DNA from: Prochlorococcus sp. AG-355-P16 | GTDB lineage: Bacteria > Cyanobacteriota > Cyanobacteriia > PCC-6307 > Cyanobiaceae | Length of the DNA: 64,000 nucleotides | NCBI GenBank assembly: GCA_003278525.1 | Contig: QCEQ01000003.1 | Location: 1 to 64,000 of the forward strand | Direction: 5' to 3' | Shown: positions 26,829 to 29,664 of the stretch, piece by piece | Layout: every line of letters starts with the position of its first letter | How positions within the stretch are numbered: the stretch's first letter is position 1 | Made by a program: the position numbers and the translations under genes | The notes under the pieces: generated by a model | What the model was told of the DNA's origin: nothing | Database searches by the model: none | The model's input: the letters and a program-made list of their open reading frames with translations, nothing else

Positions 26829-27137
26829 ATGAAAACTTTATTTAATTCTAGGCAATTTCATAAGGCTTTGGCGCCCTGGGTTTTTCTTCCATTATTTATA
26901 TCTTCAATTACTGGTCTTTTTTATAGGGTTTCAAAAGATTTACTAGGTTACTCTAGAGAACAAGTTCATTGGTTAATGTCTCTCCATGAGGGCGAATGGC
27001 TTGGAGATAATGGAGAACTTATATACGTAATATTGAATTCCCTTGGGGTTTTATGGATGCTCGTAACAGGATTCCAAATGTTTTCAAAAACAATTTCATT
27101 TACCAAAAAGGTTACTAAAGGCGAGTCAAAAGGTTAA
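26829..27137 (+). CDS. Small PepSY-like membrane protein
   Basis: The 102-residue protein has two membrane segments (about 16-32 and 66-86). The pattern [26 protein letters not shown] at the N-terminus, then [14 protein letters not shown], then [14 protein letters not shown], resembles the PepSY-associated helix pair with conserved His residues. Such proteins are common in cyanobacteria and of unknown function; the His residues could bind heme or metal, which is speculation. It is 32 nt upstream of rplS on the same strand. Confidence 0.7.
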
Positions 27138-27169: not shown

Positions 27170-27640
27170 ATGGCCAAAGAGAAACAAGAGAAGGAATTAG
27201 AAACCAGTATTAAAGCTGACGCATCAGTTGATGTGGCAGTTGAACAAAAAGAACAAAATACGGTTTCTGAGAATATTCAAACCTTAAGCGCATCTAATCT
27301 TATTAAGGAATTTGAGAATGAACAATTAAAAAAAGAATTACCTGAAATATATGTTGGGGACACTGTTAAAGTTGGTGTAAAAATTACAGAAGGTAATAAA
27401 GAAAGAGTCCAACCTTACGAGGGCGTTGTCATAGCAAAAAGGCATGGAGGTATCAACCAGACTATTACAGTTAGAAGAATTTTTCAGGGCATAGGTGTTG
27501 AAAGAGTATTTATGCTACATAGTCCACAGGTTGCCTCTCTAAAAGTTGAACGTAGAGGTAAAGTAAGAAGAGCTAAGTTATTCTATCTGAGAGATAGAGT
27601 AGGAAAAGCTACTCGCGTAAAACAACGCTTTGATCGATAA
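27170..27640 (+). CDS. rplS: 50S ribosomal protein L19 with N-terminal extension
   Basis: The L19 domain spans about residues 45-156, with [36 protein letters not shown] and the C-terminal [16 protein letters not shown] block intact. L19 lies at the 30S-50S bridge. About 40 acidic, Glu/Gln-rich residues ([24 protein letters not shown]) precede it, longer than in E. coli; picocyanobacterial L19 often carries such an extension. tRNA-Trp begins 53 nt downstream, followed by PSHCP, tRNA-Asp and gltX, making this a translation cluster. Confidence 0.96.
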
Positions 27641-27693
27641 AGTTGTAAATTAATCAACTTATTGGTCACAAAGACGCTTATAATCATTTAGAT

Positions 27694-27766
27694 GCGTCGT
27701 TAGTTCAGTTGGTAGAACGCAGGTCTCCAAAACCTGATGTCGGGGGTTCAAGTCCTCCACGACGCG
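27694..27766 (+). tRNA. trnW: tRNA-Trp (CCA anticodon)
   Basis: A full cloverleaf can be drawn: acceptor GCGTCGT pairs with ACGACGC, with discriminator G. The anticodon loop is TCTCCAAAA with CCA, and the T-arm GGGGG-TTCAAGT-CCTCC contains one G-T pair. The gene is 73 nt and does not encode the 3-prime CCA. In many cyanobacteria secE-nusG follows tRNA-Trp; here PSHCP follows instead. Confidence 0.97.
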
Positions 27767-27801
27767 TTTAATCAACATTATGTAAATCATTTTTTCATAA
27801 G

Positions 27802-27996
27802 ATGGAGTTAGATCTTCAACCTGGGGACGTAGTTAAAGTCCTCGAATCAGCTGCTTTAGGATGGGTTCGTGCAAGAGTTATCAGAGTAAAGTCTGGTGGA
27901 AGAGTTGTCGTTCAAAGTGACCAAGGCAGAGAATTTACTGCTAGAGGCAATCAAGTTAGATTGATAGAACCTGCTGGTTTTAGACCTCAAAAATAA
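27802..27996 (+). CDS. PSHCP, hyper-conserved picocyanobacterial protein (SH3-like)
   Basis: The 64-residue ORF MELDLQPGDVVKVLESAAL... matches what I remember of PSHCP, the Prochlorococcus/Synechococcus hyper-conserved protein described as essentially invariant across the clade and absent elsewhere. Published work, as I recall it, reports association with ribosomal protein L2, PsaD and a Ycf48-like protein, and an SH3-like fold with RNA/tRNA binding. The sequence itself shows an SH3/KOW-like pattern (PGDVVKVL...WVRARVIRVKSGGRVVVQSD). It lies 35 nt after tRNA-Trp and 146 nt before tRNA-Asp. Its low lysine content and higher GC stand out from neighbours. Confidence 0.9.
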   Translation: MELDLQPGDVVKVLESAALGWVRARVIRVKSGGRVVVQSDQGREFTARGNQVRLIEPAGFRPQK

Positions 27997-28114
27997 ATAG
28001 TTGTTTTTACTAAAGCAGTTAAAAACTAATTATTTTTGTAAATCCTCAAATTAATAAATTTTTTTTTACAACCCCACAAATTAAGTATTATGATCTGATA
28101 ATTTTAAGAATGAA

Positions 28115-28134
28115 GTTCTAAATAAATTTAGAAC
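28115..28134. repeat. 9-bp inverted repeat just before tRNA-Asp
   Basis: GTTCTAAAT and ATTTAGAAC are exact reverse complements separated by AA, giving a compact hairpin that ends 8 nt before the mature tRNA-Asp 5-prime end. It could be a leader structure met by RNase P or a site overlapping the tRNA promoter. There is no T-tract on its 3-prime side, so it is unlikely to be a terminator. Confidence 0.6.
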
Positions 28135-28142
28135 AAAACTCT

Positions 28143-28216
28143 GGGACCGTAGTTCAACTGGTTAGAGCACCGCCCTGTCACGGCGGAAGTTGCGGGTTCG
28201 AATCCCGTCGGTCCCG
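28143..28216 (+). tRNA. trnD: tRNA-Asp (GTC anticodon)
   Basis: The 74-nt cloverleaf has acceptor GGGACCG pairing with CGGTCCC and discriminator G. The anticodon loop CTGTCAC carries GTC with stem CCGCC/GGCGG, and the T-arm GCGGG-TTCGAAT-CCCGT ends the gene. The 3-prime CCA is not encoded. The gltX start codon lies only 17 nt downstream, with no room for an independent promoter outside the tRNA. Confidence 0.97.
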
Positions 28217-28233
28217 TTTTTTCTAAAAAAAAT

Positions 28234-29664
28234 TTGGAAAAACGTTTAAGACTAGCCCCGAGTCCAACAGGTTTATTTCATATTGGGACAGCGCGAACAG
28301 CTCTATTCAACTGGTTGTATGCACAAAAAATAGGTGGAAAATTTCTAGTCAGAATAGAAGATACAGATTTTCTTCGATCTAAATCTGAATATACAAAAAA
28401 TATATTAGATGGTTTGAAATGGCTTGGACTTAAATGGGATGATGAACCTATTAAGCAAAGTGACCGAATTTCGATTCACAAAATTTATATCAAAAAGCTA
28501 TTGGAATGTGGAGCTGCATATAGGTGCTTTACAACAGAAGATGAAATATCTGAATTAAGAGAAGAACAAAAAAAGAAAGGATTACCTCCAAAGCATGATA
28601 ATAGACATAGAAATCTTTCAAAAGAAGAAATAGAAATATTCATATCCCAAGGCAGAACTTCAGTAATAAGGTTTAAGATTGATGAAAAAATTGAAATAAA
28701 ATGGGTAGATCAGATAAGAGGTGAAATCAAATGGCAAGGGAAGGATTTAGGTGGTGATTTAGTTTTGTCAAGAAGGGCTAAAGGTTATGAGATTGGAGAC
28801 CCTTTATATAATCTTGCAGTTGTAGTTGATGATAATTTCATGAATATTACTCATGTAGTAAGAGGTGAAGACCATATCTCGAACACTGCAAAACAAATAT
28901 TGATTTATAAAGCATTAAATTTTAATTTGCCAACTTTTTCGCATACACCCTTAATACTGAATAGCGAAGGGAAAAAATTATCGAAGAGAGATTGCGTTAC
29001 TTCAATCGACGAATTTAGAGAAATGGGATATTTACCTGAGGCCTTATCGAACTATATGGCCTTTTTAGGTTGGTCTCCAAAATCTGCTGATAGAGAAATA
29101 CTCTCGCTGAAAGAGATATCTGAAATTTTTGACTTATCAGAAATAAATAAAGCTGGAGCCAAATTCAGTTGGGAAAAACTCAACTGGATTAATTCTCAAT
29201 ATATAAAAAATATGGAATCAATAAAGTTAAGTGAGATCATAAAGAAATACTGGGACGATAATGATTGGGAGCCGCCATCTCAAGAATGGGCTTATAAATT
29301 AGCAATTTTGATTAGAGACTCTATGACTCTTTTAAAAGATTCAATTGATCAATCAAAACCATTTTTCTTAATACCTACAATTCAAAAAGAAGGACAAGAT
29401 TTTCTGGAAAACGATGATAGCAAATTATCTCTTAAACTAATCTTAGATTATTTAGTTAAACTAAATACTATAAAACTAACTAAAGAGAAAGCCAAAGAAA
29501 TAATAAACGAAATCTCTAAAAAGCATAATCTTAAAAAAGGGATATTAATGAAATCATTAAGAGTCGCTTTCTTTGGATCTCTCAGTGGGCCAGATTTAAT
29601 TCAAAGTTGGGAGCTTCTCGCAGAGACTAAAACCGATAGAACTCGAATTGAAAGATGTCTTTAA
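28234..29664 (+). CDS. gltX: Glutamyl-tRNA synthetase
   Basis: The 476-residue class I synthetase has the HIGH-type signature APSPTGLFHIGTARTALFNWL (about 7-27) and the KMSKS-type KLSKRD (about 248-253), with an alpha-helical anticodon-binding domain after that. In cyanobacteria it also charges tRNA-Gln for the amidotransferase route and supplies Glu-tRNA for tetrapyrrole synthesis. The start is TTG, 17 nt after the tRNA-Asp gene, with no ribosome site; no better in-frame start exists upstream. The message probably depends on tRNA processing or on a promoter within or before the tRNA. Confidence 0.95.
   Translation: MEKRLRLAPSPTGLFHIGTARTALFNWLYAQKIGGKFLVRIEDTDFLRSKSEYTKNILDGLKWLGLKWDDEPIKQSDRISIHKIYIKKLLECGAAYRCFTTEDEISELREEQKKKGLPPKHDNRHRNLSKEEIEIFISQGRTSVIRFKIDEKIEIKWVDQIRGEIKWQGKDLGGDLVLSRRAKGYEIGDPLYNLAVVVDDNFMNITHVVRGEDHISNTAKQILIYKALNFNLPTFSHTPLILNSEGKKLSKRDCVTSIDEFREMGYLPEALSNYMAFLGWSPKSADREILSLKEISEIFDLSEINKAGAKFSWEKLNWINSQYIKNMESIKLSEIIKKYWDDNDWEPPSQEWAYKLAILIRDSMTLLKDSIDQSKPFFLIPTIQKEGQDFLENDDSKLSLKLILDYLVKLNTIKLTKEKAKEIINEISKKHNLKKGILMKSLRVAFFGSLSGPDLIQSWELLAETKTDRTRIERCL

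Follow-up and report, generated by a model that had tools for sequence, protein, structure and literature searches.

The locus encoding a hyper-conserved protein

The window analysed in the present study comprises the first 64,000 nucleotides of contig QCEQ01000003.1 of Prochlorococcus sp. AG-355-P16 (assembly GCA_003278525.1). It contains a 64-codon open reading frame (ORF), running from ATG to TAA, whose product of 64 amino acids is MELDLQPGDVVKVLESAALGWVRARVIRVKSGGRVVVQSDQGREFTARGNQVRLIEPAGFRPQK. The genes at the locus follow the order rplS, trnW, the ORF, trnD and gltX (Table 1). Residues 1–56 of the product are identical to PDB entry 6NNB (E 2.9e-31), which, according to the entry record, was deposited as the Prochlorococcus/Synechococcus Hyper Conserved Protein (PSHCP), a nuclear magnetic resonance structure of a Tudor domain (Bauer et al. 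2019). Judged by its sequence, the ORF encodes PSHCP, a protein already described and structurally solved. This identity and the presence of the gene in 363 of 400 genomes of the family (246 of the 250 near-complete ones) indicate that the ORF is not a chance reading; the family here means Prochlorococcus, marine Synechococcus and their freshwater relatives. An earlier note, made from the DNA alone, had placed PSHCP between tRNA-Trp and tRNA-Asp in this same order, and both the coordinates and the match to 6NNB bear it out.

Table 1. Features of the PSHCP locus in the window.
Feature	Position	Strand	Remarks
PSHCP coding sequence	27802..27996	+	64 aa + stop; residues 1–56, Tudor/SH3-like barrel; residues past GF variable
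Leader, tRNA-Trp to PSHCP start	27768..27801	+	34 nt
tRNA-Trp (CCA)	27693..27767	+	ARAGORN, Rfam
tRNA-Asp (GTC)	28142..28217	+	ARAGORN, Rfam
rplS (bL19)	27170..27640	+	NCBIfam TIGR01024, E 8e-47
gltX	28234..29664	+	apparent start codon TTG, 16 nt past tRNA-Asp
Sigma-70-like promoter match TTTACA-18-TATGAT	28065..28094	+	5' of tRNA-Asp

Much of this was on record. Whidden et al. (2014, PMC4215834) described the near-invariance of PSHCP, the order rpl19, trnW, pshcp, trnD, gltX, C-terminal variation of two residues, substitutions in some strains, and the occurrence of the protein in Cyanobium, freshwater Synechococcus and the Paulinella chromatophore. In the same work, pshcp transcripts begin inside trnW or just 3' of it, and the abundance of the protein is of the same order as that of RbcL.

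The ORF is less AT-rich than its surroundings (GC 0.43 versus 0.32 for the window) and its product is poorer in lysine (4.7%) than those of rplS (10.9%) and gltX (11.1%), as had been noticed earlier. Its GC content at third codon positions (GC3, 0.22) matches that of the neighbours, so the higher GC of the ORF stems from the amino-acid content. No Shine–Dalgarno sequence is evident in the leader. Upstream of rplS, a 102-aa ORF (26829–27137) was observed with a PepSY_TM match scoring 31.7 bits against the Pfam cut-off of 28.8.

Distribution, conservation and selection

Thirteen of the genomes without a PSHCP match were examined; ten also had no detectable rplS and three had rplS only at contig ends, and true loss of the gene was therefore rejected for these absences. 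When 291 genomes of the class were searched with a profile, all 44 family members were recovered and no convincing match emerged in the 247 other cyanobacterial genomes, where only 13 partial matches (E 0.003–0.1) appeared against about 25 expected by chance. The gene was not found in phage records or viral contigs either, and the viral structure library yielded weak generic barrel matches only; an origin in, or carriage by, phages was rejected. PSHCP is restricted to the family, freshwater lineages included. The expectation that it is absent elsewhere thus holds beyond the family (the 247 genomes and the phages), but the limit had been drawn too narrowly, as freshwater lineages and the Paulinella chromatophore have the protein too. 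In one genome (G182), a small contig opens with an inverted rplS fragment adjoining trnD-gltX (L297:1-300), which is probably an assembly chimera.

Roughly nine genomes in ten share the same protein sequence over residues 1–62, a figure estimated from match scores and not from alignments. In the sampled loci, E2D, V13A, K12R, R25S, R43S and I55N are each confined to single genomes, while V10L and L19M are common to all six genomes read from one genus of the family (g9), whose protein also starts two residues later; the start in genome G049 is late as well. After GF the protein ends variously in RP, KP, HP, HN, ST, SSP or RPQK, the QK tail being common to most of the genus to which the window belongs. 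Amino-acid identity of 100% across the clade was not found, with variants at about ten positions, and exceptions to invariance had been noted before (PMC4215834). The near-invariance claimed for Prochlorococcus and marine Synechococcus is thus real but not strict, given V10L, L19M and the variable end. The suspicion that the final residues are less constrained was correct, and the loose part starts directly after GF. K30, R23, R28, R34, R48 and R53 are unchanged in every aligned variant.

In 28 diverse loci, chosen to include the most divergent PSHCP copies, non-synonymous divergence (pN) was 0.019 for PSHCP versus 0.047 for the rplS core, and synonymous divergence (pS) was 0.70 versus 0.64. 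This comparison, proposed in the earlier note, points to purifying selection on the protein. Among 110 Prochlorococcus loci, 94 distinct DNA sequences encode one protein, and 52 of 60 codons vary without any amino-acid change; these loci were best-scoring matches, so that the zero count is biased and the conclusions rest on the 400-genome search and the diverse set. Divergence at four-fold sites is no lower in PSHCP than in rplS, and GC3 tracks that of rplS (r = 0.91). Synonymous sites being as variable as in rplS, selection acts on the protein and not on the DNA. The dense placement of the ORF between two tRNA genes might suggest that an element in the DNA or RNA beneath it explains the conservation; the 94 DNA versions of one protein, the four-fold sites and the GC3 correlation refute this, and its probability is next to nil. 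A hidden RNA element was also rejected because Rfam reports only tRNAs at the locus.

Gene order and its age

All sampled family loci, G049 included, retain the order rplS-trnW-PSHCP-trnD-gltX unless a contig end interrupts them, so the tRNA-PSHCP-tRNA arrangement can be regarded as fixed in this sample. The gap from trnW to the ATG is 33–37 nucleotides in 22 of the 28 diverse loci, and the gap from PSHCP to trnD ranges from 130 to 1437 nucleotides. Within the latter spacer, the block TATGATCTGATAATTTTAAG (28065–28130) hardly varies across 98 distinct Prochlorococcus spacers. The TATGAT hexamer lies in this block; the promoter scan alone was at chance level, but the position of this second hexamer in a near-invariant block suggests that tRNA-Asp probably has its own, putative promoter.

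Outside the family, rplS-trnW adjacency is general in cyanobacteria, and in 43 of 61 distinct outgroup genomes the genes after trnW are secE-nusG. In one related family (f10), rplS-trnW-trnD-gltX occurs without PSHCP in all four genomes in which the region is assembled, and in another (f11) rplS-trnW-trnD is present in two genomes. An unrooted tree of two genes, gltX and rplS, placed f11 next to the PSHCP family, followed by f10 with G406, its deeper branches being moderately supported (94/85, 91/91). No PSHCP relic was detected between trnW and trnD in f10 or f11, where the best local scores did not exceed those of shuffles (p 0.2–0.9). In the two f11 loci (L263, L264), tRNA-Trp is directly followed by an apparent intrinsic terminator, judged by eye, at the position of the PSHCP leader in the PSHCP family.

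The simplest history is that trnD-gltX joined trnW first and PSHCP was later inserted between both tRNA genes. The order of the neighbours seems older than PSHCP and was probably inherited. Derivation from the KOW domain of NusG, encoded 3' of trnW in most cyanobacteria, was considered and rejected (hhalign probability 12.7%, 28 columns).

Another neighbour differs between the family and its relatives. Nearly all family loci read encode an N-terminal tail of bL19 (27170–27283 in the window) of about 30–50 extra residues, mostly acidic and of low complexity. The 30 outgroup loci read lack the tail, save a few ambiguous longer starts that are probably upstream in-frame codons, and outgroup bL19 normally starts 23–28 residues before the GDTV motif. 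Within the family, G049 appears to lack the tail and genus g9 has it. At the root of the family, PSHCP might have arisen de novo or by transfer in an rplS-trnW-trnD-gltX array already present and, together with the new tail, mark a lineage-remodelled ribosome in which both are functional partners. The tail varies freely, whereas PSHCP does not; a specific partnership is therefore unlikely, and this scenario as a whole is very improbable.

Function and comparison with known domains

A template-free AlphaFold model of PSHCP is a five-stranded barrel. In the PDB its closest match is 6NNB; myosin SH3-like, Agenet and Tudor domains come next. The only Pfam hit, SH3_1, is just under the cut-off (21.9 versus 22.9 bits). 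Of the SH3/KOW-like pattern seen earlier, the SH3-like part is thus confirmed by the Tudor/SH3-like fold, and the KOW part is not, Pfam giving no KOW match. The nearest folds past 6NNB include an Agenet domain and the TDRD3 Tudor domain, readers of methylated residues, so that PSHCP could act like a classical Tudor domain and recognize methylated lysine or arginine residues of a protein. It has only three aromatic residues, W21, F45 and F60, the last of them at the variable end; a complete aromatic cage is therefore unlikely, and such a role is highly improbable.

The protein is strongly basic, with an isoelectric point of about 10.8, eight arginines and three lysines. The authors of the structure are said to have found that it binds tRNA in preference to DNA, with a contact patch around Lys-30. 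We somewhat favour the interpretation that PSHCP is a clade-specific, ribosome-associated accessory factor of translation that binds tRNA or rRNA. PSHCP is a free-standing basic Tudor/SH3-like barrel confined to the family, and its face rich in arginine and lysine would grip tRNA or rRNA at or close to the large ribosomal subunit. Contacts with RNA or with protein partners may involve so large a share of its few residues that hardly any substitution can be tolerated. The ribosome-linked site of action and this reason for the invariance are inferred; the published data are explained most simply by a basic RNA-binding surface at or close to the large subunit.

The identity to 6NNB, the matching fold, the basic charge, the unchanged K30 and arginine set and the constraint at the protein level all speak for this interpretation. 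So do the recovery of L2 in PSHCP pull-downs from three strains and the expression of pshcp, which tracks translation genes under nitrogen and phosphorus limitation (PMC4215834), as well as the RNA-binding function of the Tudor domain named in the title of Bauer et al. (2019, cited in PMC7585439).

Several points weigh against it. Neither a structure of a ribosome with PSHCP nor an in vivo map of its RNA contacts was found, 6NNB being the sole PDB entry matched, and R25S and R43S replace arginines in single genomes, although these could be assembly errors. The order of the neighbours exists without PSHCP in f10 and rplS-trnW adjacency is general, which makes gene order weak evidence of function. 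The translation-linked role suggested earlier therefore agrees with published work on RNA and translation, but loses the support that had been drawn from the tRNA and ribosomal context. As for the proposed place near L2 and L19, proximity to L2 is based on the published pull-down (PMC4215834), and nothing in this analysis supports a contact with L19.

The same pull-down also contained PsaD and a Ycf48-like protein (PMC4215834), a further point against the favoured interpretation. PSHCP could accordingly be an adaptor linking translating ribosomes to photosystem assembly factors such as Ycf48, with RNA and L2 binding as its ribosome-side contact. This is unlikely, since unique peptides per strain were few, often one, and neither the sequence nor the gene neighbourhood contains a photosystem pointer. 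A role as a general chaperone of mRNA or small RNAs, in which in vitro binding of tRNA or ribosomes would be incidental to positive charge, would suit a small, abundant, basic protein with a generic barrel that has many unrelated structural matches. Charge alone, however, would not require near-invariance of the whole barrel, and pshcp expression follows translation genes (PMC4215834); the chaperone role also seems rather doubtful.

In the most abundant phototrophs of the ocean, PSHCP stands out for its striking conservation. The protein, its near-invariance, its neighbours, the L2 pull-down and RNA binding were published before; the point added here is that the neighbour order appears older than the gene. 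This weakens one cited argument about its function and offers a pre-insertion comparison for studying the origin of PSHCP.

Among known domains, the NusG/Spt5 KOW domain resembles PSHCP in size and in its SH3-like barrel (4zn1, TM-score 0.72), and nusG lies near trnW in most other cyanobacteria, but the PSHCP profile compares with it at a probability of only 12.7% over 28 columns and has no Pfam KOW match. The eukaryotic Tudor and Agenet domains of TDRD3 and ADCP1 share the five-stranded barrel (TM-score about 0.73–0.76); they differ in sequence (about 20–25% identity), PSHCP is probably too poor in aromatic residues for a full methyl-reader cage, and its reported ligand is RNA. The closest known system is PSHCP itself (Whidden et al. 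2014, PMC4215834; 6NNB), with the same protein, gene order, family-wide range and variable C-terminus. The window ORF agrees with the described sequence of about 62 aa, to which it is near-identical, and differs only by the two-residue C-terminal QK extension, length variation of this kind being on record already.
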